A stretch of DNA of 64,000 nucleotides, taken from assembly GCF_016758175.1 (NCBI RefSeq), contig NZ_QYAB01000003.1:248001-312000 (forward strand), in the 5' to 3' direction. Positions 7,508-56,966 of the stretch are shown here, piece by piece (the stretch's first letter is position 1; each line of letters begins with the position of its first letter). This DNA is from Leucobacter zeae. Lineage in GTDB: Bacteria; Actinomycetota; Actinomycetes; Actinomycetales; Microbacteriaceae. The translations under genes and the position numbers were made by a program. A model generated the notes under the pieces. The model saw only the letters and a list, made by a program, of their open reading frames with translations, made no database searches and was not told where the DNA came from.

Positions 7508-8869
7508 TCAGCCGACGCGGCCGCGGGTCTCGGGGACGCGGGTGACGGCCATGGCGACGAGAGTGAGCAGCGCGACGCCGATCACGTAGAACGCGGGCGA
7601 GAAGGGGACGCCCGTCGCGTTCACCAGCGCGGTGCCGATGAAGGGGGCGGTGCCGCCGAGGAGCGCGTACCCGAGGTTGTAGCTGAACGCGGCCGAGGTG
7701 AAGCGGCTCTTGGTGTCGAACACCTCGATGAAGAAGGTGTAGCAGCCGCCGCCGTAGCAGCAGATCGCGGCGACGAAGATCATCTGACCGCAGAGCGCGA
7801 GGAGCACGTCGCCGCTCGTGACGAGCAGGAACGCCGGGATGGCGAGCACCGCGATCGCGATCGCGCCGATGATGAGCATCGGGCGTCGGCCGACCCGGTC
7901 CCCGATCGCCCCGGCGACGGGGAGCAGCACGGTGTAGGCGAGCATGGCCGCGCCGTTGAGCAGCAGCGACTGGTCGCGGCTGAGGTTGCCCGCGGTCTCG
8001 ACGTACGAGATGAAGTAGCCCGACAGGAAGTAGAAGCCCATCGCGGTGAGGCCCATCACGAACACCACCTGGATCATCTTGAGCCAGTTCGTGCGGAAGG
8101 CGTCGCGCACCGGGGTGGCGCGCACGGCCTCGGACTCCGCGCGCTCCTGCTCGCGCACCATCTCCTTGAAGGCGGGGGACTCCTCGGTCTTGGCCCGGAT
8201 CCAGAGCCCGACGAGGGCGAGCGGCAGCGCGATCAGGAACGGAACCCGCCAGCCCCAGTCGTGGAATGCGGCGTCGGTCATCGTGCTCGACAGGAAGAGC
8301 ACGAAGAAGGCCGCGATGACCGACGGCAGCGCGGTCGCGGCGAGCGTGACGTTGATGAACAGCCCGCGGCGGTGGATCGGCGCGTGCTCGAACACGAAGG
8401 ACGGCGCCCCGGCCGATTCACCGCCGGCGGAGAGCCCCTGCAGTAGCCGCAGCACGACGAGCAGGATCGGGGCGAGCGGGCCGATCGTGTCGTAGCCGGG
8501 GAGCAGTCCGATCGCGGAGGTCGCGACGCCGATCGTGAGCAGCGTGATGACGAGGACGTTGCGGCGGCCGATCCGGTCTCCGAGCGCGCCGAAGAACAGC
8601 CCGCCGAGGGGGCGGATGAAGAACGCGACGCCGTAGGTGGCGAAGAGCGCGAGCAGCCCGGCGAGCGCGTTGTCCGACGGGAAGAAGAGCGCCGAGAGCG
8701 TGACCGCCGAGATGCCGTACAGGGCGAAGTCGTAGAACTCGATGAACTGGCCGACGCTGCCGCCTGCCAGCACGCGTCGTTGCATCGGGGTGATGCCGGT
8801 GCGCTCGGCCTCGCGGGGCGGGGCCGAGGGGGTCTGTGTCCGTAAAGCGTCATTGCTCATATGGTTCAT
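7508..8869 (-). CDS. MFS transporter, metabolite:H+ symporter (MHS) type
   Basis: An approximately 453-aa, 12-helix major facilitator. The MHS-type N-terminus GQFIEFYDFALYG, the loop 2-3 motif GALGDRIGRRNVL and the second-half GDRVGRRPML are visible. Related proteins import organic acids, betaines or similar small charged metabolites with protons. It is the first gene of the operon with the carbamoylase and amidase, so it likely imports their substrate. Three in-frame starts lie close together: GTG 8875, ATG 8869 and ATG 8860. None has a good ribosome site, so the exact start is uncertain. A perfect LysR-type palindrome lies about 200 bases upstream. Confidence 0.88.
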   Translation of the reverse strand: MNHMSNDALRTQTPSAPPREAERTGITPMQRRVLAGGSVGQFIEFYDFALYGISAVTLSALFFPSDNALAGLLALFATYGVAFFIRPLGGLFFGALGDRIGRRNVLVITLLTIGVATSAIGLLPGYDTIGPLAPILLVVLRLLQGLSAGGESAGAPSFVFEHAPIHRRGLFINVTLAATALPSVIAAFFVLFLSSTMTDAAFHDWGWRVPFLIALPLALVGLWIRAKTEESPAFKEMVREQERAESEAVRATPVRDAFRTNWLKMIQVVFVMGLTAMGFYFLSGYFISYVETAGNLSRDQSLLLNGAAMLAYTVLLPVAGAIGDRVGRRPMLIIGAIAIAVLAIPAFLLVTSGDVLLALCGQMIFVAAICCYGGGCYTFFIEVFDTKSRFTSAAFSYNLGYALLGGTAPFIGTALVNATGVPFSPAFYVIGVALLTLVAMAVTRVPETRGRVG

Positions 8870-9074
8870 GGTCACCAGAACCTACGGCGGCGCATAGGCG
8901 CTGTCAATGGATGGCCGCTGGGGCCGTGCCGCGAGAGCGCGCCTCCGCGGAAGCACGGTCCGTGCCGTCGGGGCCGGAGAGGTCACGTGTCACTGGGCGA
9001 GAACGCCGGCTATCCCGCGGAAATCCGCGCGTCTCGGGCGGCTCGCACATCGGATGGGCCGCTGAGCGGCCTCA

Positions 9075-9101
9075 TTTCGCATCGATCGAGATTATGCGAA
9101 A
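9075..9101. promoter_or_regulatory. Perfect LysR-type T-N11-A palindrome
   Basis: TTTCGCAT, eleven bases, then ATGCGAAA: an eight-base perfect inverted repeat whose inner bases are T-N11-A, the established LysR-box geometry. It lies between the 3' end of the LysR gene and the start of the MFS-carbamoylase-amidase operon, which it probably controls. Confidence 0.65.
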
Positions 9102-9153
9102 GGCAAGGAAATTTGCGTGCAGCCGGCTGGAGCCGGCGGCCCGAAACGCCCGC

Positions 9154-10104
9154 TCAGCCGGCGTCGATGCCCTCGCCCGCCCCCGCCCCGCCCGAGACGT
9201 ACAGCCTCCGGCAGACCTCTGCGAACGCTTCGACCCGCTGCGAGGCGTCGCCGATCCGGCGCACGAGGCTCAGCCGGAGCCCGGGCAACCGGTCCGCGAG
9301 CTCGACCGCGACGACCCGGGTGCCGCCGTAGCTGCGGTCGTTGGCGATGCGCTGGTTGAGCAGCGAGACCCCGAATCCCCGTCCGACCAGGCCGCGCACG
9401 GTCTCGTAGCCGCGCACCCGGAAGCGCACGTCGGCCTCCACCCCCACCGAGCGGAACAGGCCGAGGTAGTAGGAGGCGGTGTGCGGCAGATCGAGCAGGA
9501 TCAGCGGATCCGCGGCGAATCGCCGCAGCTCGACCGGCCCAGGAGCCCCCGCGAGCGGGTGCTCCGGAGGCACGATCGCGTGCGGCAGGAGCGTCTCCAG
9601 CGTCTCGATCTCGAGCTGTTCGAACGGCGCCATGTCGTAGGCGACCGCGACGTCGATCTCCTGGTCCTCGAGCATGCGCACCAGCTCGTCGTGATCGGCC
9701 TCGACCAGTTCGAGCGCGATCTGCGGGTGCCGACGCGCGAACGCGTGCACGATGGTCGGTGCGCGGAAGGGCGCCATGGGCGAGTACATGCCCACGCGCA
9801 GCGTGCCGATGAGCGCGCCCTCGAAGCTGCCGATCCGCTCCGACATGCTCTCCGCGTGCGAGAGGAGCGCGACCGCGTCGAGGTGGAACTGGCGCCCTGC
9901 GGCGGTCAGGCGGATGCCCTTCCGGGGCACGCGCTCGAACAGGGTGACCCCGAGATCCCGCTCGAGCAGCGTGATCGCGGCCGAGAGCGCCGGCTGCGAG
10001 ACGTGGAGGCGCTTCGCCGCCTCCGTCATGCTTCCGGAGCGCGCGGCCTCGGTGAAGTAGCGCAGCTGGGTCAGCGTGAACTGCGCGGGAGACGACGGGG
10101 TCAC
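9154..10104 (-). CDS. LysR-family transcriptional regulator
   Basis: A 316-aa LysR regulator. The N-terminal winged helix-turn-helix (about residues 9-68) reads FTLTQLRYFTEAARSGSM then AAKRLHVSQPALSAAI and LFERVPRKG. An effector-binding domain of two Rossmann-like lobes follows (about 95-300). The start is the GTG at 10104 with GAGGGGC nine bases ahead. It is on the same strand and immediately upstream of the MFS-carbamoylase-amidase operon, separated by 278 non-coding bases that hold the T-N11-A palindrome, so it is the natural regulator of that operon. The inducer is probably a pathway substrate (inference). Confidence 0.9.
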   Translation of the reverse strand: MTPSSPAQFTLTQLRYFTEAARSGSMTEAAKRLHVSQPALSAAITLLERDLGVTLFERVPRKGIRLTAAGRQFHLDAVALLSHAESMSERIGSFEGALIGTLRVGMYSPMAPFRAPTIVHAFARRHPQIALELVEADHDELVRMLEDQEIDVAVAYDMAPFEQLEIETLETLLPHAIVPPEHPLAGAPGPVELRRFAADPLILLDLPHTASYYLGLFRSVGVEADVRFRVRGYETVRGLVGRGFGVSLLNQRIANDRSYGGTRVVAVELADRLPGLRLSLVRRIGDASQRVEAFAEVCRRLYVSGGAGAGEGIDAG

Positions 10105-10194
10105 CCGGCCGCCCCCTCACGATGCGTCGCCATCTCGGATGCTCCTCCCGCCGATGCCGGCTCCCTGCACTCTACCGCCGCGTGCGGAGCTCGG

Positions 10195-10851
10195 TCAGGC
10201 CGCGCCGCTCCCCCACAGCCCCTGGTAGGGGTGCCCGAGCCCGATCACGAGGCGTCGCAGCGCCGGGAGCGACAGCCCGATCACGCAGCTCGGGGCCCCC
10301 TCGATGCGCTCGATGAACGCGCCCGCGAGCCCGTCGATCGCGAACCCGCCGGCGAGCTCGAGCGGCTCCCCCGTGGCGACGTAGGCGGCGAGCTCGTCGT
10401 CGCCGAGGTCGGCGGCGAGGGTGACCCGCGCCGTATCGACCGAGCCGGCGGCGCCGCGCACCTCGCCGCCGGTGCAATCGACGAGCCAGTGGCCCGAGTG
10501 CAGCACCCCCGTGCGGCCGCGATGCCGCTTCGAGCGCTCGAGGGCGACCTCGGGCAGGTGCGGCTTGCCGAGGATCTCGCCGTCGAGCAGGAACATCGAG
10601 TCGCCGCCGAGCACGAGCCCGTCGATCTCGCCCGTCCCCCCTGGCCCGTGCCTGCGCACGACGTCCTCGGCCTTCAGCCGCCCGAGGTACTCGGTGAGCT
10701 CGGGAGCCGTGAGCGCGCGACCGATCTCGGTTTCGCGTGCGGCGACTTCGGCCTCCTCGTCGACCTCGGGCGAGAAGCAGATCGGCTCGATCCCCGCTCC
10801 TCGGAGCACGGACAGGCGGGCGGGCGACGTCGAGGCAAGGAACAGGCGCAT
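10195..10851 (-). CDS. maf: Maf-family nucleotide pyrophosphatase
   Basis: A 218-aa house-cleaning nucleoside triphosphate pyrophosphatase that cleaves dTTP/UTP or modified nucleotides to the monophosphate. Family signatures are complete: LASTSPARL at the N-terminus, LGGDSMFLLDGEILGKP with the catalytic aspartate, and the C-terminal GEPLELAGGFAIDGLAGAFIERIEG-type region split across residues about 160-185, ending SCVIGLSLP. No ribosome site precedes the ATG at 10851. Instead TATGCT stands six bases before it, so the mRNA is probably leaderless. A slightly acidic insertion around residues 30-60 is longer than in many homologues. Confidence 0.9.
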   Translation of the reverse strand: MRLFLASTSPARLSVLRGAGIEPICFSPEVDEEAEVAARETEIGRALTAPELTEYLGRLKAEDVVRRHGPGGTGEIDGLVLGGDSMFLLDGEILGKPHLPEVALERSKRHRGRTGVLHSGHWLVDCTGGEVRGAAGSVDTARVTLAADLGDDELAAYVATGEPLELAGGFAIDGLAGAFIERIEGAPSCVIGLSLPALRRLVIGLGHPYQGLWGSGAA

Positions 10852-48399: not shown

Positions 48400-49533
48400 A
48401 TGACCGAGCGTGCATCGACCTCGTCCGCGATCGAGCGGCTCACCTGCGTGATCCCCGCGGGCGGCGTGGGGTCCCGGCTCTGGCCCCTGTCACGGGCGAG
48501 CGCCCCGAAGTTCCTCCTCGACCTCACCGGCTCGGGGGACTCCCTGCTCCGTGCGACGTGGGAGCGGCTCTCCCCGATCGCGCCGGCCGATCGGATCCTC
48601 GTCGTGACCGGCAATCGGCACCGCGACTCCGTCGTCGAGCAGCTGCCGGAGCTCCTCCCGCACAACCTCATCACCGAGAGCGAGCCGAAGGACTCGTCCG
48701 CCGCGATCGGGCTCGCCGCCGCGATCCTCGAGCTGCGCGACCCCGATGCGATCCTGGGATCGTTCGCCGCCGACCACGTGATCCGCGGCGAGGTGCTCTT
48801 CCAGCGCGCGGTCGCCACAGCGGTGCAGGCGGCCGACCAGGGCTACATCGCCACGATCGGGATCCACCCGAGCCACCCGGCCACGGGGTTCGGATACATC
48901 TCCTGCGGCGGCGCCCGCGGCGACCTCGCCCCCTTCGACGTCTACGACGTGACGGAGTTCGTCGAGAAGCCCGACGCCGCGACGGCCCGGGACTACCTCG
49001 CCTCGGGCGGGTACCTGTGGAACGCCGGCATGTTCATCGCCCGGGCGACCGTGCTGCTCGACCAGATGGCGCTCGCCGAGCCCGAGATGGTGCGCGCCCT
49101 CCGGGAGATCGCCGCCGCGTGGGGCACGAAGCGCGGAGCCGAGGCGCGCGAGCGCCTCTGGCCGACGCTGCCGAAGATCGCGATCGACTACACGGTCGCC
49201 GAACCCGCTGCCGCGGCAGGCAAGATGGTGTGCGTCGCGGCGCACTTCGACTGGGACGACGTGGGCGACTTCGCCTCGGTCGCGACCCTGCTCACCCGCG
49301 GGCGCGGGAGCGACCTCGCGGTGCTCGGCGACGGCGCCCAGGTGCTCTCCGACGCATCGAGCGGCATCGTGGTCTCGTCCGACAGCGACCGGCTCGTCGC
49401 CCTCGTGGGCGTCGAGGACGTCGTGGTGGTCGATACCGCCGACGTGCTGCTCGTGACCTCCAAGAGTCGCGCCCAGGACGTGAAGAACCTGGTCAACCGC
49501 ATGAAGCTCTCAGGCGGCGGACACCTGCTCTGA
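48400..49533 (+). CDS. manC: Mannose-1-phosphate guanylyltransferase
   Basis: A 377-aa nucleotidyltransferase making GDP-mannose from GTP and mannose-1-phosphate. The nucleotide loop is VIPAGGVGSRLWPLSRASAPKFLL; further markers are TGNRHRDSV, the FGYISCGG strand, VEKPDAATA and WNAGMFIARA. The isomerase domain of bifunctional ManC/AlgA is absent, as usual for actinobacterial enzymes of this length. The start at 48400 is chosen because TACGCT stands six bases before it; the longer frame to 48313 lacks support. Its last 24 bases overlap the end of the convergent DeoR-LacI hybrid gene. Confidence 0.93.
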   Translation: MTERASTSSAIERLTCVIPAGGVGSRLWPLSRASAPKFLLDLTGSGDSLLRATWERLSPIAPADRILVVTGNRHRDSVVEQLPELLPHNLITESEPKDSSAAIGLAAAILELRDPDAILGSFAADHVIRGEVLFQRAVATAVQAADQGYIATIGIHPSHPATGFGYISCGGARGDLAPFDVYDVTEFVEKPDAATARDYLASGGYLWNAGMFIARATVLLDQMALAEPEMVRALREIAAAWGTKRGAEARERLWPTLPKIAIDYTVAEPAAAAGKMVCVAAHFDWDDVGDFASVATLLTRGRGSDLAVLGDGAQVLSDASSGIVVSSDSDRLVALVGVEDVVVVDTADVLLVTSKSRAQDVKNLVNRMKLSGGGHLL

Positions 49534-50610
49534 GCGGATGGGCCGCGATGCGGCGCCGCCCGCGGTCGACTCCCGTTCCGTGAGGCTCGGGACGAGCGAG
49601 ACCCGGCGCGCAGGCAGCGGGGCAGTCGTTCTCAGCCGCAGCAGCGCCGTCTCCGCCGCCTGATGCCCGAGCGCCCAGGCCGGAGTCGCGACCGACGTGA
49701 ACCGCACGCTGGTCAGCGCTGCGACGCTGTCCCCGACCGTGACGATCGACAGGTCCCGCGGTACGCGGAGGCCCCTCTCCCGGATCGCCTCGACGAGCTC
49801 CATAGCGGCCTCGTCTGGAGCGACGAGTATCGCGCTGGTCCCCGAGTCAAGGCAACGGCCGACGAAGTCCGCGACGCCGGCTCCGACACGCTCGGCGGCG
49901 ACGAGACCGGGCCGGCGGAGCATCGGCGCCTCGTGGTCGAGCCCATGCGTTTCGACGGCCCCTCGATAGCCCTCCAGGATGTCGGACGCTCCTCGCCCCT
50001 CGCGCAGGAAGAGCGCGACGCCACGATGCCCCTGCGACGCGAGATGCTGGACAGCGACCCGAGCGGCGAGCGAACGGTCGGCCTCCACGACGTCGGAAGC
50101 GACCCCACGCGCGGACAGTCCCTTCGGCCCGTCGACGATGACGAGCGGGGTCGGTACCGAGCGCAGTCGTTCCCAGCGTTGGCCGTCATCCGGCCCCGAC
50201 ACCTCGGCGGGGGCGAGGAGAATCGCATCGACCGACCGCTCGCCCATCCGCGCCAGGTGCCGGAGCTCCTCCGTGCAGGAATCCCCTGATGTCCCGATGA
50301 GCATGCGGAACCCCTCGGACTGTGCAAGCGCCCCCGCTCCGCGCACCATCTCGCGGAACTCGTGCGTAGCCTCGGGGATGATGAAGCCCAGGGTCCCGCG
50401 GACGGGTGCGTCGATCCGCGTCCCTCCGGCGTCCACCGCCACCGCTCCGCCGCGCACCCGGCGAACCAGCCCGTCGCGCTCGAGCACATCGAGGTCCCGG
50501 CGGATCGTCATCTGGGAGAACCCCCAGATCCGAGCGAATGCCGCGACCTCGACCCGTCCGCGCAACTCGAGCTCCCGCGCGATCCGTTCGCGCCGTTCTA
50601 CAGCCAGCAT
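49510..50610 (-). CDS. Hybrid regulator: DeoR-type HTH with LacI-type sensor domain
   Basis: A 366-aa regulator. The N-terminal 55 residues are a DeoR-type winged helix: RRERIARELELRGRVEVAAF then FSQMTIRRDLDVLERDGLVRRVRGGA. The rest (about 72-355) is a LacI/GalR periplasmic-binding-protein-like sensor beginning GTLGFIIPEATHEF, with VDAILLAPAEV, HLASQGHRGVALF and DLSIVTVGDS. LacI proteins normally carry a different HTH, so this is a domain swap. The start ATG 50610 has GGAGGGGC; 50640 is rejected. Target is unknown; a perfect dyad 94 bases upstream suggests autoregulation. A sugar effector is likely from the sensor fold. Confidence 0.87.
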   Translation of the reverse strand: MLAVERRERIARELELRGRVEVAAFARIWGFSQMTIRRDLDVLERDGLVRRVRGGAVAVDAGGTRIDAPVRGTLGFIIPEATHEFREMVRGAGALAQSEGFRMLIGTSGDSCTEELRHLARMGERSVDAILLAPAEVSGPDDGQRWERLRSVPTPLVIVDGPKGLSARGVASDVVEADRSLAARVAVQHLASQGHRGVALFLREGRGASDILEGYRGAVETHGLDHEAPMLRRPGLVAAERVGAGVADFVGRCLDSGTSAILVAPDEAAMELVEAIRERGLRVPRDLSIVTVGDSVAALTSVRFTSVATPAWALGHQAAETALLRLRTTAPLPARRVSLVPSLTERESTAGGAASRPIRSEQVSAA

Positions 50611-50994
50611 GATGCCCCTCCCCGATGCTCGTCGGAGCATCCGCGCCGCCGGGTGCGATCCGAATGCGACCGATGCGCCTGTCTCGACGATAGGCGTCGG
50701 CCCTTCACACCCTCAGATGAAGTGTGAAAGACGCGCGCCGCAGAAGCGCGCCGGCAGTCGACCCCGCGGCAGGATCGGTGCGACGAACCTCGGGACGGTG
50801 CTGGAGAGCACGGCCCCGGCCGACCGGCGCGGGACCGTGCTCTTCTCCTCGCCGGGGGGATCGAGCGAGGGGGGAGGACCGGGGGGAACCGACCCGGTTC
50901 TGTTCTACGCCGCGCCCATCGGGAACCGCAACACGCAGGGTCGGCCTCCGCACATCTGCGCACACGCGCGGCCCGTCGCCGGAGCCGCGCGCGG
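50611..50994. other. Intergenic region upstream of the DeoR-LacI hybrid
   Basis: A 384-base stretch with no credible gene; the frames crossing it are Arg/Ser/Pro-rich shadows. It contains the TTCACAC/GTGTGAA dyad at 50704-50728, a G-rich run at about 50851-50890 and the sequence CGACCCGGTTCT (from about 50892), which also occurs in the hairpin at 41.5 kb. It is downstream of the Cache gene and upstream of the hybrid regulator. Confidence 0.5.
50704..50728. promoter_or_regulatory. TTCACAC-N11-GTGTGAA operator candidate
   Basis: A seven-base perfect inverted repeat with an eleven-base spacer, 94 bases before the hybrid regulator start, a typical autoregulatory site. Confidence 0.55.
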
Positions 50995-51717
50995 TCAGGC
51001 GGCGGCGATGAGCGAGAAGGGATAGCGCTCCGAGCTCACGATCCGGCGCGGCGCGTCGAGTGCTTCGATCCCGAGCTCCGGGTCCGCGCCGGGATACCGG
51101 TCGCCCGTCTCGTAGTCGGGATCGGAGGACACCACGACGCGACCGCTCGCGTTCACCAGCGTCGCATCGGCGAACTCCGAGATGCGCGGGAGCAGCGCCT
51201 CCTCGAGCGACGCGACGAGCACGTCGGCGCAGATCACGCCGCCGAAACGGCCGTCGATGTCGACCGGCATCGACGAGGTGATGGTGATCTCGTTCGAGCA
51301 GAGGTAGTCGACGAAGGGCCCGGCGACGTGCCGCCGCCCCGTCGACTCCGGCACGCGGTACCATTCCAAACGCACAAGATCGATCGCCGCCTGGCCCGGC
51401 CCGAACATCGAGGCGCCGAGCAGCAACCGGTCAGCGCCCTGCCACCAGGCGAGCGGATTGCCCTCGTGCACCACGAGATCGCTCGCGCAGTATCCTGCGC
51501 CGTAGAGCGGCCGGCTGCGCTGATCCAGGATCCGATCGGCATCCGCCCGAACGAACTCGGCGAGCTGCGGCCCGGTCATGCGCCCGTGGGTGAGGCGCTC
51601 GGTCAAGCGCTCCGCGAGATCGGGCAGCCAGGCCTCGAGCGGAGCGAAGACGCCGTCGAAGAACTCGTCGACCAGTCGCATCGCTCGTGCGAGCGATCGC
51701 TCCGCCGTTGCCGTCAC
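50995..51717 (-). CDS. Soluble Cache-domain sensor protein, coupled to GntR
   Basis: A 240-aa protein without signal peptide or membrane helix. Residues about 55-200 match a double-Cache fold: an N-terminal helix, then RLEWYRVPESTGRRHVAGPFVDYLC and ITSSMPVDIDGRFGGVICADV regions. Pocket residues aligned by spacing to amino-acid/amine-sensing dCache domains are Trp119, Tyr120, Phe135, Asp137 and Asp165; the carboxylate-binding Arg two residues before the Trp is a Leu here. Cache domains are normally extracellular parts of receptors, so a cytosolic one is unusual. GTG 51717 overlaps the gntR stop as GTGA. It probably senses the amine imported by the divergent transporter and informs GntR (inference). 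Confidence 0.78.
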   Translation of the reverse strand: MTATAERSLARAMRLVDEFFDGVFAPLEAWLPDLAERLTERLTHGRMTGPQLAEFVRADADRILDQRSRPLYGAGYCASDLVVHEGNPLAWWQGADRLLLGASMFGPGQAAIDLVRLEWYRVPESTGRRHVAGPFVDYLCSNEITITSSMPVDIDGRFGGVICADVLVASLEEALLPRISEFADATLVNASGRVVVSSDPDYETGDRYPGADPELGIEALDAPRRIVSSERYPFSLIAAA

Positions 51718-52565
51718 TGGCGCCCCTCTCCATCGAGACCGTCGAATCCGTCGGCAGATGAGCTCGCCCCCCGACGTCCCTCCAGTGTGGCACGAAGGCC
51801 GCCGTCCTGCTGCGTCGCGATCAGTTCCGCACGGAAGCCGACGAGCCAGCGCACCGATGCCCGGATGCTGCGGCGCACCGAGGCGCGAGCGGCCGCGACC
51901 TCGCCCGCGCGCGTCGCCGCGATCTGCTCGACGAGCGCGTCGTGCGTGGCGAGCCGCGCGTCCGTGTCGAGATCCTGCAGCGCGAGCAGCGGCGTGAACT
52001 CGGTCTGCACGCGCACGTGCTCGTTGGTGAGGCGCACGGACTGGCTGAGGGCGGCGAGTTCGAGCTGCACCTCGGTGACGCGCCTGCGCCACGACTGCCG
52101 CGGGAGCTCGCGGGTCGCGTCGAGGATCGTCTCGACGACATGCAGCTCCTCGGGAGTGGCCCGCTGGCAGGCGTACTCCGCGCACGCGGCCGAGATCGCC
52201 TCGTAGTGCACCCCGAGGTCGGCGAGCGCGACGCGGGGCATGGTCATGAGCGCGAGCGCGTTGACCTCTTCGACGGCGCCGTGGCTCGAGCGCACGAAGC
52301 TCCCGCCGTTCCTGCCGCGCCGCGTGTCGATCAGCCCGCGATGGCGCAGGGCCCCCAGCGCCTCGCGCACGGTCACGACCGCGACGCCGAGCATCGATGA
52401 GAGCTCGGTCTCGCTCGGCAGCCGCTCCCCCTCGGAGAACGCCCCGACCGAGATCGCCTGCACGATCCGAGCTTCGACGAGCTCGGTGCGCCCCTCATCG
52501 CCGATCGGCGAGAAGGCGGCGCTGCGGAGCCGGCTCGGCGGCACCTGGGCCAGGATGCTGGTCAT
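51714..52565 (-). CDS. GntR-family transcriptional regulator (FadR/FCD-like)
   Basis: A 283-aa regulator. The winged helix (about 28-98) contains [23 protein letters not shown] split over helix 1, [21 protein letters not shown] and the wing [11 protein letters not shown]. The C-terminal part (about 110-255) is all-helical and FCD-like, with [17 protein letters not shown] and the [21 protein letters not shown] helix; metal-binding histidines are fewer than in classic FCD domains, which may explain the need for the partner Cache protein. The ATG at 52565 follows GGGAGGCCC. It is divergent from the second Pot-type transporter operon across 178 bases. Confidence 0.88.
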
Positions 52566-52668
52566 CTCGGGCCTCCCTCAGTCGTCCGCGCTCATTCGAG
52601 TGTGCCACGTCGGCGGTGAGGAATCGCTGAACCGCCGTGACCGAAACGTGATCCCTGGATCCCGCCGG

Positions 52669-52697
52669 GGTTTAAAACCTATAAAAACATATGTTAT
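52669..52697. promoter_or_regulatory. AT-rich promoter with two palindromes (candidate GntR operator)
   Basis: GGTTTAAAACC (52669-52679) and the perfect palindrome AACATATGTT (52686-52695) form the only strongly AT-rich patch between gntR and the transporter operon, about 50 bases before the ATPase start. Confidence 0.5.
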
Positions 52698-52743
52698 GGT
52701 TCAAAGCATCGGTTCGACAACGACGTTGAGGAGCTTCGGCATC

Positions 52744-53805
52744 ATGAGCCACACCACACCCCCCGCAGACCGCGGCGACATCGCCGTCTCGGTCCAGGGA
52801 GTCCACAAGCAGTTCGGCGATCTGGTCGCGGTCAAGGATCTCGACATCGACATCCGCGCCGGCGAGTTCTTCTCGATGCTCGGACCCTCGGGATCCGGCA
52901 AGACCACGGTGCTCCGCATGATCGCCGGCTTCGAGGAGCCGACGGCCGGACGCATCCTGCTCCACGGCACCGACGTCACGAGCGCGGCCCCGTTCGACCG
53001 CGAGGTCAACACCGTCTTCCAGGACTACGCGCTGTTCCCGCACCTCTCGATCGCGGAGAACGTCGCCTACGGCCTCAAGGTACGCGGCGTCGGCAAGGCC
53101 GAGCGGGCGAAGCTCGTGGGCGAGTCCCTCGAGCAGGTGCAGCTCTCCCACGTCGCGGAGCGCCGCCCGTCCCAGCTCTCGGGCGGCCAGCGCCAGCGCA
53201 TCGCACTGGCCCGCGCCCTGATCCTGCGCCCGAAGGTGCTGCTGCTCGACGAGCCGCTCGGCGCGCTCGACAAGCAGCTCCGCGAGCAGATGCAGTTCGA
53301 GCTCAAGCAGATCCAGCGCGAGGTCGGCATCACCTTCGTCTTCGTCACGCACGACCAGGAGGAGGCGCTCACGCTCTCCGACCGCGTCGCCGTGTTCAAC
53401 GGCGGCAAGATCGAGCAGGTCGGCAGCCCGCGCGAGGTCTACGAGTACCCGCAGACCGAGTTCGTCGCGAAGTTCCTCGGCGTCACGAACCTGCTGAAGG
53501 GCGACGACGCGCACCGGATCCTCGGCGACGCGGCTCCTCACAGCGTGCGCCCCGAGCGGGTCGCGCTGGCGGACCCGACCGCTCCCGTCGAGGCAGGCAC
53601 GATCGCCGTGCCGGGCAACATCGTCGAGGCGGTCTACGCGGGGGCGCACACGCGCTACCTCGTCGAGGCCGAGGGAGGCTTCCGCTTCATCTCGGAGCAG
53701 CAGAACACCCAGGCCCCCAGCACCGCGACCGGCATCGGCCGCGGCGACGCGGTCAGCCTCCGCTTCTCCCGCGACCACGCGGTCGCGGTCCCGAACGCGG
53801 CCTGA
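52744..53805 (+). CDS. potA: Polyamine-type ABC transporter ATP-binding protein (second system)
   Basis: A 353-aa ATPase. Walker [14 protein letters not shown], the Q-loop [37 protein letters not shown] and [13 protein letters not shown] are intact. The C-terminal TOBE-like domain (about 255-353) includes SVRPERVAL and GAHTRYLVE. It is the first gene of the operon here, unlike the first system where the ATPase is last, so the two are not a recent duplication block. The ATG at 52744 has GAGGAG eleven bases ahead. The frame extending upstream to 52240 overlaps gntR on the other strand and is rejected. Confidence 0.9.
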
Positions 53806-53889: not shown

Positions 53890-55080
53890 ATGAACAAGAA
53901 ACTGCTCGCACCCGCGGCCCTGCTCGCGGCGGTCGGCCTGGCGCTCTCCGGCTGCGCCAGCTCGGGAGATGACGCAAAGGGGGGCGGCGAGGCCGCAGGC
54001 GGCCTCCAGATCGATGTGCCCGAGATCCCCGCGATGGACAAGCTCGGCGACAATGAGAAAGAGGTCAACATCCTCGCCTGGTCCGGCTTCGTCGAGCCGG
54101 CCTGGTCCGACAAGTTCACCGAGGAGACCGGCTGCGTCGTCAACCGCAAGGTCTTCGCGACCAGCGATGAGGCCGTCCAGCTCATGCGCACGGGCGAGTA
54201 CGACCTCGTCTCGGCCTCGGGCGACGCCAGCCTCCGCCTGATCGTCGACGGCAACGTGCAGCCGCTCAACACCGACCTGATCCCCAACTTCGGCGACGAC
54301 ATCGTCGAGGGCATGAAGGGCCAGCTCTACGACACCCTGAACGGCAACGTCTACGGCATCCCGATCGGACGCGGCGCGAACATCCTGGAGTACAACTCCG
54401 ACGTGGTCAAGGAGGCTCCCGACAGCTGGGACGTCGTGTGGGAGCAGGACAGCCCGTACGCCGGAAAGATCGCCGCGTACGACAGCCCGATCTACATCGC
54501 GGACGCCGCGATCTACCTCATGGCGACGCAGCCCGACCTGGGGATCGAGAATCCCTACGCCCTCGACGAGAAGCAGCTGCAGGCCGCGACCGACCTGCTG
54601 AAGCAGCAGAACAAGATGGTGTCGGAGTACTGGGCGCCCGCGACCAACGTCACCTCGTTCACCGGCGGCAACTCCGTCGTCGGCACCTCCTGGGAGGTGC
54701 TGCGCAAGGCGACCGAGGACGAGAAGTTCAAGAGCGTGCTGCCGCAGGAGGGCTCGACCGGATGGTCGGACGCCTGGATGCTCGCCGCCGAGGCGAAGAG
54801 CCCGAACTGCGCCTACGCGTGGATGGACTACACCAGTTCCCCCGAGGTCAACGGCCAGATCGCGATGAACTTCGGCATGGCTCCCGCGAACGGCGCGTTC
54901 TGCGAGACCAGCGACGAGGCCAAGGAGCACTGCGACTACTACAACGCCACCGATGAGGAGTACTACAAGAACGTGTGGTTCTGGACGACCCCCATCGATC
55001 AGTGCATCGACGGCCGCACCGACGTGCAGTGCACCAACTACCAGGACTGGACTCAGGCCTGGGCCACGGTGAAGGGCTGA
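53890..55080 (+). CDS. potD: Polyamine-type ABC transporter substrate-binding lipoprotein (second system)
   Basis: A 396-aa exported lipoprotein with lipobox LSGC at Cys22. The mature protein shows the PotD-type pattern: EVNILAWSGFVEPAWSDKF, a TGCVVNRKVF strand, LMRTGEYDLVSASGDASLRL, YGIPIGRGANILEYN and, near the end, YYKNVWFWTTPIDQCIDGR. Five cysteines after the lipobox may form disulfides outside the cell. The ATG at 53890 has AAAGGAG. A near-perfect 40-base palindrome follows its stop, a common device to keep binding protein in excess over permeases. The ligand is probably a polyamine or amine. Confidence 0.9.
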   Translation: MNKKLLAPAALLAAVGLALSGCASSGDDAKGGGEAAGGLQIDVPEIPAMDKLGDNEKEVNILAWSGFVEPAWSDKFTEETGCVVNRKVFATSDEAVQLMRTGEYDLVSASGDASLRLIVDGNVQPLNTDLIPNFGDDIVEGMKGQLYDTLNGNVYGIPIGRGANILEYNSDVVKEAPDSWDVVWEQDSPYAGKIAAYDSPIYIADAAIYLMATQPDLGIENPYALDEKQLQAATDLLKQQNKMVSEYWAPATNVTSFTGGNSVVGTSWEVLRKATEDEKFKSVLPQEGSTGWSDAWMLAAEAKSPNCAYAWMDYTSSPEVNGQIAMNFGMAPANGAFCETSDEAKEHCDYYNATDEEYYKNVWFWTTPIDQCIDGRTDVQCTNYQDWTQAWATVKG

Positions 55081-55242: not shown

Positions 55243-56127
55243 GTGAGCACCAAGACCGTTTTCGAACGCCGACCCAAGCCGCTCTCGACGGCGCTCTACC
55301 GGCACCCGCGCGCCAGACTCGCGTCGCTGCTGGCGCTCCCCATGACCTGGCTCGTCGGCGTCTACATCCTGTCGCTCGTCCTGCTGCTCATGACCTCGTT
55401 CTGGACGACGGACCCCTTCACCTCGCGCGTGAAGCCCGGATTCACGCTCGAGAACTTCCAGCAGCTCTTCACCACCCCGGCCTACGTGGCGACCACGCTC
55501 CGCACCCTCGGCATCGCCCTCGCCGTCACCGCGATCTGCGCGCTCTTCTCCGTACCGCTCGCCGTCTTCATGGCGAAGATCGCGGGCCCGCGGGCCCGCG
55601 CCGTGCTGGCCGTGCTCGTCACGCTCCCGCTCTGGGCCGGCTACCTCGTCAAGATCATCGCCATGCGCCTCGTCTGGACCGACGAGGGCTTCTTCAACTG
55701 GTCGCTCTCGTTCTTCGGCATCAAGGGCCCGGGCTTCGGCGTGGTCGCCGTGATCCTCACCCTCGTCTACCTCTGGTTCCCGTACATGGCGATCCCGGTC
55801 TACGCCGCCGTCGCCCAGATCCCGGCGAACCTCTTCGACGCCTCGTCCGATCTCGGGGCGAGCGGATTCCGCACGATCCGCACGATCGTGGCACCGCTCC
55901 TCCTGCCCTCCCTCATCGCGGGGTCGATCTTCACATTCTCGCTCAGCCTCGGCGACTACATCGCGGCGATCTACACCGGCGGATCCACGCAGATGATCGG
56001 CAGCGTCATCGCGCAGAACATCAACCTCAACCCTCCGCTCGCCGCCGCATTCTCGATCGTGCCGATCGTGCTCGTGGTCGTGTACCTCAACCTGGTCCGC
56101 CGCACCGGCGCACTCGACAACCTCTAA
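55243..56127 (+). CDS. potB: Polyamine-type ABC transporter permease, PotB-like (second system)
   Basis: A 294-aa permease with six helices. After a basic cytosolic tail (ERRPKPLSTALYRHPRARL) the first helix starts near residue 30. The EAA loop is LFDASSDLGASGFRTIRTIVAPLLLPS, and FSLSLGDYIAAIYTGGS matches PotB-type permeases. GTG 55243 has GAGGACC ahead. It follows 162 bases of stem-loops after the binding-protein gene and pairs with the next permease, 29 bases downstream. Confidence 0.9.
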   Translation: MSTKTVFERRPKPLSTALYRHPRARLASLLALPMTWLVGVYILSLVLLLMTSFWTTDPFTSRVKPGFTLENFQQLFTTPAYVATTLRTLGIALAVTAICALFSVPLAVFMAKIAGPRARAVLAVLVTLPLWAGYLVKIIAMRLVWTDEGFFNWSLSFFGIKGPGFGVVAVILTLVYLWFPYMAIPVYAAVAQIPANLFDASSDLGASGFRTIRTIVAPLLLPSLIAGSIFTFSLSLGDYIAAIYTGGSTQMIGSVIAQNINLNPPLAAAFSIVPIVLVVVYLNLVRRTGALDNL

Positions 56128-56156: not shown

Positions 56157-56966
56157 ATGCTTCGCCTGAATCGCGGCACCAGGATCGCGCTCATCGCGAT
56201 CACCGTCATCGCACTGGGATTCATGTACATCCCGCTGTTCGTGATCATCATGAACTCGTTCAACGCCGGCCGGGTGCCCGGCTGGCCCATCCCCGGATTC
56301 TCGCTCGAGTGGTGGCGCCTCGCGCTCGCGAACCCCGCCGTCCACGCGGCGGTGCTGAACTCGGTGATCGTCGCCGCCGTCGCGACGGCGTTCGCGCTGG
56401 TGCTCGGCACGCTCGCATCGTTCGCCCTGCAGCGGTTCAAGTTCTTCGGACAGCACACCGTGAACCTGCTCATCATCCTGCCGATCACGCTGCCCGGCAT
56501 CGTCACCGGTGTCGCGCTGTCGAACACCTTCCACCAGGTGCTGAAGCCGATGGGCATCAATGTGGGGTACTGGGGCATGATCATCGCCCACGCCACCTTC
56601 TGCGTGGTCATGGTCTTCAACAACGTGATCGCCCGCCTGCGCCGCATGAACCCGAACCTCGAGGAGGCGTCGATGGACCTCGGCGCCGGCATCTCGCAGA
56701 CGTTCCGGCTCGTCACCTTCCCGCAGTTCCGCAGCGCGTTCATCGCGGGCGGGCTGCTCGCCTTCGCGCTCTCGTTCGACGAGATCGTGGTCACGATCTT
56801 CACCGCTCCCCCGGGGGTCGAGACGCTGCCCCTCTGGATCATGAACCAGATGGCGCGCCCGAACGAGGTCAACCAGGTCAACGTCGTCGCGACCGTGATG
56901 ATCGTGCTCTCGCTGATCCCCGTGTACTTCTCGCAGAAGGCCTCGGCCGCGGGGGACGCGAAGTAG
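56157..56966 (+). CDS. potC: Polyamine-type ABC transporter permease, PotC-like (second system)
   Basis: A 269-aa six-helix permease. The first helix is followed by MNSFNAGRVPGWPIPGFSLEW; the EAA loop is LEEASMDLGAGISQTFRLVTFPQFR; the late FALSFDEIVVTIFTAPPGVETLP is a strong PotC-type marker. The ATG at 56157 has GAAGGAGA. It is the last gene of the second Pot operon and is followed by a run of four hairpins before the convergent resB. Confidence 0.9.
   Translation: MLRLNRGTRIALIAITVIALGFMYIPLFVIIMNSFNAGRVPGWPIPGFSLEWWRLALANPAVHAAVLNSVIVAAVATAFALVLGTLASFALQRFKFFGQHTVNLLIILPITLPGIVTGVALSNTFHQVLKPMGINVGYWGMIIAHATFCVVMVFNNVIARLRRMNPNLEEASMDLGAGISQTFRLVTFPQFRSAFIAGGLLAFALSFDEIVVTIFTAPPGVETLPLWIMNQMARPNEVNQVNVVATVMIVLSLIPVYFSQKASAAGDAK

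Follow-up and report, generated by a model that had tools for sequence, protein, structure and literature searches.

A GntR regulator gene overlapping a gene for a predicted cytosolic dCache-fold protein in Leucobacter zeae: a possible two-protein amine switch

In the window, a stretch of 64,000 nucleotides from Leucobacter zeae, a gntR gene overlaps a gene, here called cache, for a predicted cytosolic protein with a dCache fold. We propose, with a probability of roughly 0.6, that the two genes constitute a two-protein amine switch encoded in one operon, in which the amine-bound Cache protein would relieve the repression of an uptake operon by GntR. The features of the locus are as follows.

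50995..51717, minus strand: cache, 240 aa, predicted cytosolic dCache-fold protein
51223..51447, minus strand: pocket codons W91, W92, W119, Y120, F135, D137 and D165, assigned from TlpQ/PctA alignments and conservation
51714..51717, minus strand: GTGA overlap of the gntR stop and the cache start
51714..52565, minus strand: gntR, 283 aa, winged helix and FCD domain (FadR-type)
52636..52652, plus strand: second conserved element, direct repeat CGTGACCGAAACGTGAT (GTNAY-N6-GTNAY)
52676..52695, no strand: predicted GntR operator AACCTATAAAAACATATGTT, a 20-bp imperfect palindrome ahead of the divergent Pot operon
52744..53805, plus strand: PotA-like ATPase of the divergent operon
53890..55080, plus strand: YdcS-like solute-binding protein
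55243..56127, plus strand: PotB-like permease
56157..56966, plus strand: PotC-like permease

In the proposed mechanism, a GntR dimer would bind the predicted palindrome at 52676-52695 between the divergent units, and would repress both the PotA-YdcS-PotB-PotC operon and its own operon. By homology to TlpQ and McpU, aromatic residues of the Cache protein, together with D137 and D165, would enclose a small cationic amine, and the amine-bound form may contact the FCD domain of GntR and loosen the regulator from the DNA. The conserved gene pairing, the gene overlap, two natural fusions and a lineage-specific loss of the FCD metal site point to this contact. The most likely ligands are polyamines or related small amines imported by the divergent transporter.

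The TGA of gntR occupies 51714-51716 and the GTG of cache 51717-51715, resulting in a shared GTGA, in agreement with an earlier note on this DNA which placed the cache start within the gntR stop. From this overlap we infer that the genes are co-transcribed. The Shine-Dalgarno-like GGAGAGG at 51725-51731, 7 nt 5' of the GTG, could serve as the ribosome site of cache. An ATG at 51681 in the same reading frame is an alternative start, favoured by the codon-usage gene caller, and the N-terminus of the Cache protein is thus only a prediction. The gntR product belongs to the FadR-type (FCD) GntR regulators, as it exceeds both Pfam cut-offs (GntR, 7e-13, 48.4 bits versus 27; FCD, 1.5e-6, 29.1 bits versus 24.3). 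Downstream of cache, 49510-50640 on the minus strand encodes a regulator with a DeoR-type helix-turn-helix and a LacI-type periplasmic-binding-like sensor domain.

Cache is a receptor-type sensor domain that is normally extracellular. The structure prediction against dCache references that the earlier note proposed as a check gave a dCache fold (pLDDT 90.1, pTM 0.88). VIA-align gave Z values of 19.8 for 6pzj, 19.5 for TlpQ, 19.1 for McpU with putrescine, 19.0 for McpX, 18.8 for PctD and 18.5 for PacA, values differing by 1 or less being counted as tied. The top Foldseek match by E-value was CqsR with ethanolamine. The Pfam matches to dCache_1 (PF02743; 3.2e-6, 27.3 bits versus a gathering cut-off of 45) and MCP-like_PDC_1 (3.7e-5) were both below the Pfam cut-offs, and the dCache assignment therefore rests on the fold and not on the Pfam score; dCache_1 was matched at E ≤ 0.01 in 23 of 27 relatives. 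The model begins with a long charged helix (residues 3-42). The hydrophobicity peak, a 19-residue stretch from residue 158 with a mean of 1.63, coincides with the strand 157-167 and the beginning of the helix 168-179, and is thus part of the modelled core and not a membrane helix. A 19-residue stretch above 1.6 was found in 50 of 112 Cache segments, and in the orthologs it is the same core strand. The claim of a 240-aa protein without membrane helix is borne out by this model, a membrane protein is disfavoured, and we predict that the Cache protein is located in the cytosol.

An ortholog of cache was found in 28 of 36 genomes of the genus (60-76% identity), and of the remaining eight genomes four contain only a distant homolog and four contain none. 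At the 28 ortholog loci, gntR is always directly upstream, and a divergent potA is present at 27; the sole exception, L017, is interrupted by a contig end. A profile of 11 sequences retrieved relatives from 48 of 394 genomes of the class (23 of 138 genera), a single-sequence search retrieved them from 9 of 396 genomes of the phylum, and three weak matches came from plasmids. For the wider comparison we used 110 non-redundant Cache proteins, obtained from a list of 112 by leaving out the membrane-type L039 and L150; L154-L156 are membrane-type Caches as well, and segments no longer than 90 residues were also set aside. gntR lies just upstream of cache in 105 of these 110 (39/39 Leucobacter orthologs and 66/71 others), which rules out a chance neighbourhood. 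The misses are L066, at a contig end with an FCD fragment 5' of cache (seen in L153), L133 and L149, with gntR just downstream, and L104 and L130, without gntR. Among 80 script-called pairs, for which the script also picked the start codons, 53 overlap or are at most 30 nt apart, and 29 have an overlap of exactly 4 bases. The codon-usage script that called neighbouring genes missed, among others, cache in L092, L100 and L112 and gntR in L091, so that all neighbour counts are approximate.

Two single-chain proteins with the order winged helix-FCD-Cache were detected:

8885-10393: fusion L103, from a Microbacteriaceae MAG
8669-10156, minus strand: fusion L136, from genome G543, adjoining an aldehyde dehydrogenase gene

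L103 matches the Pfam families GntR (3.7e-15), FCD (2.5e-8) and MCP-like_PDC_1 (1.3e-5, one bit under the cut-off), and Foldseek matches of its model include FCD regulators and dCache receptors. This model has a mean pLDDT of 77, with residues 292-361 almost all below 50, and is uninformative on the interface; in the underlying alignment 16 Cache rows are misplaced over their N-terminal 12 to 16 residues. The two natural fusions suggest that the separate GntR and Cache proteins act together.

Other arrangements were observed as well. The L. zeae genome contains a second GntR-Cache pair (L002/L106, C2:208032-208664) with a 4-base overlap, located near two glutamine-amidotransferase/C26-type genes. 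At locus L148 in genome G043, a 646-aa Cache-containing protein is encoded two genes after the gene for a 255-aa Cache, and a comparison of these two Caches might reveal the origin of the cytosolic form.

Should GntR sense through its own FCD domain, the Cache protein could be a co-expressed amine binder acting elsewhere, as a cytosolic amine buffer or on a transporter or enzyme. Most FadR-type regulators do sense through the FCD domain, in which metal is bound by D146, H150 and H195 in DgoR and by H134, H174 and H196 in TM0439; E. coli FadR has no metal site and senses without metal (PMC7674646, available text), hence loss of the site does not exclude FCD membership. We aligned the FCD domains of 104 partner GntRs to a paralog from the L. 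zeae genome with the residues D-H-H-H. None of these four residues was found in any Leucobacter ortholog (0/38), which makes metal-assisted sensing by GntR itself unlikely in this lineage and is compatible with sensing having been handed to the Cache protein. The middle position depends on the alignment, and a His located three residues before it is common among the orthologs. Of the other 66 partner GntRs, the first His is retained in 41, the three His together in 23 and the complete D/E-H-H-H set in 18, so many of them may sense by FCD too; the GntR of the second L. zeae pair also keeps D-H-H-H. These retained sites, and the occurrence of cache without gntR in L104 and L130, favour separate roles for the two proteins. 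The single-chain fusions, a pairing in 105 of 110 cases despite varying target genes, and the disappearance of the metal site throughout the Leucobacter orthologs count against such roles, and we consider FCD-based sensing with an independent Cache protein rather unlikely.

The switch that we propose requires that the Cache protein binds an amine. With a profile of 27 diverse intracellular Caches, the best PDB relatives were TlpQ (2.4e-10) and then PctA (3.8e-10), whereas an ortholog-weighted profile gave PctA (2.9e-8) before TlpQ (3.4e-7). In the profile alignment to PctA, W119-Y120 falls on WY, D137 and D165 fall on its two Asp residues, and L117 is opposite the Arg two residues before the W, which we take to be the carboxylate-binding R126. 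TlpQ uses Y208, D210 and D239 to bond the primary amine, and equivalent Asp residues hold the amine in TlpQ and McpU (PMC6234866, available text). A HMMER alignment places these three TlpQ residues on F135, D137 and D165; the numbering was confirmed by K211 of PMC6234866, which comes after D210 in the printed chain. The earlier note had read the spacing of W119-Y120, F135, D137 and D165 as that of the dCache ligand pocket, with the carboxylate-binding Arg replaced by Leu, and these alignments agree on both points. D137 and D165 are kept in all 110 Caches, W91 in 109 and W119 in 106. Position 117 is Leu in 39/39 Leucobacter orthologs, and Arg in 5/71 others. Because the pocket Arg is lost, an amino-acid sensor is disfavoured; the five non-orthologs with Arg and the position of PctA at the head of the ortholog-profile list are counterpoints.

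Judged by these positions, the pocket resembles that of polyamine and histamine receptors. TlpQ and McpU share its fold and have their amine-binding Asp residues conserved as D137 and D165, but they are membrane receptors with Tyr208, whereas the window Cache is predicted to be intracellular and has Phe. Position 135 is Phe in 39/39 Leucobacter orthologs and Tyr in 65/71 other Caches; the Phe would cost the pocket one amine contact, which weakens the case for polyamines in the Leucobacter lineage. The quaternary-amine receptors PctD, PacA and McpX, of the dCache_1AM type, also have the same fold, with the Trp/aromatic residues and the final Asp in common by spacing; PctD Tyr206 stands, again by spacing, where the window Cache has D137. 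The dCache_1AM motif of PctD consists of R103, D133, W155, F188, Y189, M215, S217 and D235. W119, Y120, I146, S148 and D165 occur at the spacing of this motif, and W91 or W92 may correspond to W155, a mapping based on spacing and the PctA/TlpQ alignments and not on a direct alignment to PctD. S148 is Ser in 35/39 orthologs and 4/71 others. An equivalent of the R103-D133 salt bridge of PctD (added helical element) was not located from sequence alone, and the window Cache conforms only in part to the dCache_1AM amine motif as defined by Cerna-Vargas et al. 2023 (PMC10104139, available text).

A distance of 178 bases separates the gntR start from the Pot operon, which runs on the opposite strand. 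It encodes a PotA-like ATPase, a YdcS-like binding protein and two Pot-type permeases, as expected from the earlier description of a divergent polyamine-type ABC operon; TIGR01187 (polyamine ABC ATPase) was assigned with NCBIfam, and the other matches fell below the equivalog cut-offs. In Leucobacter 20-kb loci with a called cache, potA is at the expected place in 20 of 22, the misses being L085 (contig end) and L091 (gntR not called). Among 62 loci outside the Leucobacter ortholog set, a complete A-S-B-P set is directly divergent in 27, part of which spans seven family labels, in four further loci Pot genes occur no more than seven genes away, and 31 have none. The expectation that the pair would recur next to Pot operons in other genomes therefore held for the pairing itself and for many, not all, of the loci. 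With 31/62 loci lacking Pot genes nearby and several of these pairs lacking the operator, target and ligand are expected to differ within the family.

We also scanned 38 neighbouring genes, mostly from non-Pot loci (37 of 103 listed, and the aldehyde dehydrogenase gene of L136). Pfam assigned six aldehyde dehydrogenases, four amino-acid permeases, three P450s, two class-I amidotransferases, one C26 hydrolase, one class-III aminotransferase and one EutH, as well as families without a clear link to amines (four FAD-binding oxidases, three acyl-CoA dehydrogenases, two YceI, two CBS and more). NCBIfam matches to glutamine-synthetase-III-like proteins and aminotransferases were under the curated cut-offs, and the pair of L127 adjoins an adenylosuccinate synthase gene without an evident link. 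L143, L145 and L146 share the order gntR-cache-P450-ferredoxin-reductase, which recalls the amine-catabolism system of PipR, a FadR-like GntR of piperidine and pyrrolidine use in Mycobacterium smegmatis (PMC2018728, available text), and likely represents a cyclic-amine operon with a Cache partner. L143 and L145 also contain a gene resembling that for the glutamine-synthetase-like protein of L146.

The switch may be real and yet respond to a ligand other than a polyamine, such as ethanolamine, methylamine, a cyclic amine, GABA or an amino acid. Pairs located next to APC permeases, P450-ferredoxin genes, EutH and glutamine-synthetase-like genes are in line with this, as are the ethanolamine complex of CqsR as best Foldseek match by E-value and the amino-acid receptor PctA as best PDB match of the ortholog profile. 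The complete divergent Pot operon in 27/62 non-ortholog loci, together with potA in 27/28 loci of the genus, argues for polyamines, and the Leu in place of the receptor Arg speaks against amino acids in particular; we regard a non-polyamine ligand as unlikely. Of the two-protein amine sensor put forward in the earlier note, the dCache fold, the conserved pairing and the fusions support the general design, while F135 in place of Tyr weakens the case for polyamines in this lineage.

Alignment of the Leucobacter intergenic regions revealed an island AACCTATAAA..CATATGTTA, and palindromes of the same type are also present in other families. With a leave-one-out position matrix, the score of 43 of 59 upstream regions was higher than the 99% level of 590 dinucleotide shuffles, and 40 regions exceeded even the top-scoring shuffle. 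The 59 regions (61 minus two, removed for length or similarity, with four Leucobacter orthologs included and nine loci without upstream gntR or of membrane type omitted) are not fully independent, since some are close relatives and the seed was drawn from the same regions; the shuffles serve as control. The highest shuffle was exceeded by 29 of 30 regions with a directly divergent Pot operon, the miss being L097, and by 11 of 29 other loci. An operator for every pair is rejected, as 19/59 regions do not exceed the highest shuffle, including those of the Leucobacter paralogs L106-L109 and L111, the fusion L103 and L097; accordingly, a search upstream of the second L. zeae pair gave no operator like that of the window.

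Within the L. zeae genome, the family pattern (at most two mismatches) occurs only once, at 52676-52695, with a score of 28.8; the next best score is 9.5. When one mismatch was allowed, a looser pattern also matched at C1:1626539, a place that the family pattern does not recover. Of 787 regions upstream of other genes in the loci studied, nine scored above 20, representing six distinct sites. These precede the Pot operon of L101 and of L102, which in both is not divergent from gntR, an amino-acid permease gene in L148, P450 genes in L143 and L146, and, also in L146, a small gene and a purine/cytosine-type permease gene. The palindrome differs from the TKGT/ACMA boxes given as the usual FadR-subfamily consensus in a comparison of GntR motifs (PMC4494728, available text).

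A sigma-70-like promoter was searched for in 52550-52800 and none was found, so that the position of the operator relative to a promoter is not fixed. Substrate-relieved repression is common FadR-type logic. A co-activator role, in which GntR would need the amine-bound Cache protein to bind DNA or to activate and the pair would switch genes on directly or repress uptake when amine is plentiful, is left some room by a control sign that is unreadable from sequence and by the lack of a placed promoter in that interval, but is very improbable, as uptake genes controlled from one palindrome that lies between two divergent units would fit substrate-relieved repression.

About 24 bases before the predicted operator, the direct repeat at 52636 forms a second conserved element. 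It is present in 12 of the 33 Pot-divergent regions and in 1 of the 16 others, versus 0.8-0.9% of shuffles. Only one further exact copy exists in the L. zeae genome, at C1:705589, where it overlaps a glutamate-dehydrogenase-like gene at the 3' end and appears to be fortuitous. As a guess, the repeat may be bound by an OmpR-type nitrogen regulator; GlnR and MtrA were considered as candidate binders. In L097 (Mycolicibacterium frederiksbergense), where the operator score of the upstream region is low (11.6), the Cache protein is 56% and the Pot proteins are 74-86% identical to those of Leucobacter; this set is far nearer to Leucobacter than taxonomy suggests, and was probably transferred between families.

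Two-gene operons of a stand-alone intracellular dCache_1AM protein and a transcription factor were reported in Actinobacteria by Cerna-Vargas et al. 2023, whose Figure 4 legend lists GntR and who propose amine sensing for intracellular dCache_1AM proteins (PMC10104139). The window pair is of the same kind, a cytosolic stand-alone dCache with a regulator gene, whereas the ten proteins tested in that study represent four membrane receptor families, and target genes, operator, fusion and mechanism are absent from the available part of the paper. No other papers on the GntR-Cache pair were found among the matches listed in the openly licensed literature. The assertion that a soluble Cache partner of a GntR repressor is poorly described must be qualified accordingly: the arrangement was reported in 2023, and only briefly in print, and the window pair is a further case of a known, little-studied arrangement. 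New with respect to print are the predicted operator and target genes, the fusions and the FCD metal-site loss, all of them computational. In Streptomyces, EpuRI and EpuRII regulate ethanolamine and polyamine genes, and the mono- and polyamine genes under their control include transporters and gamma-glutamylation enzymes; the main texts, as available, mention neither GntR nor Cache (PMC8998196, PMC6529630).

More generally, the family may represent a modular amine-sensing system of Actinobacteria, in which a repressor without its own effector site uses a detachable cytosolic Cache protein as the ligand-reading subunit, with occasional re-fusion; we hold this wider view tentatively, at slightly less than even odds. 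If true, sensing by a Cache protein as a distinct subunit would wire a bacterial repressor in another way than FCD sensing does, and one operator type would serve varying amine targets, such as polyamine uptake, permeases, P450 operons and glutamylation genes. The operator, targets, pocket residues and fusions translate into concrete predictions on the DNA, the genes, the ligand class and the residues involved, and GntR-Cache pairs could, if the proposal is right, serve as amine biosensors.
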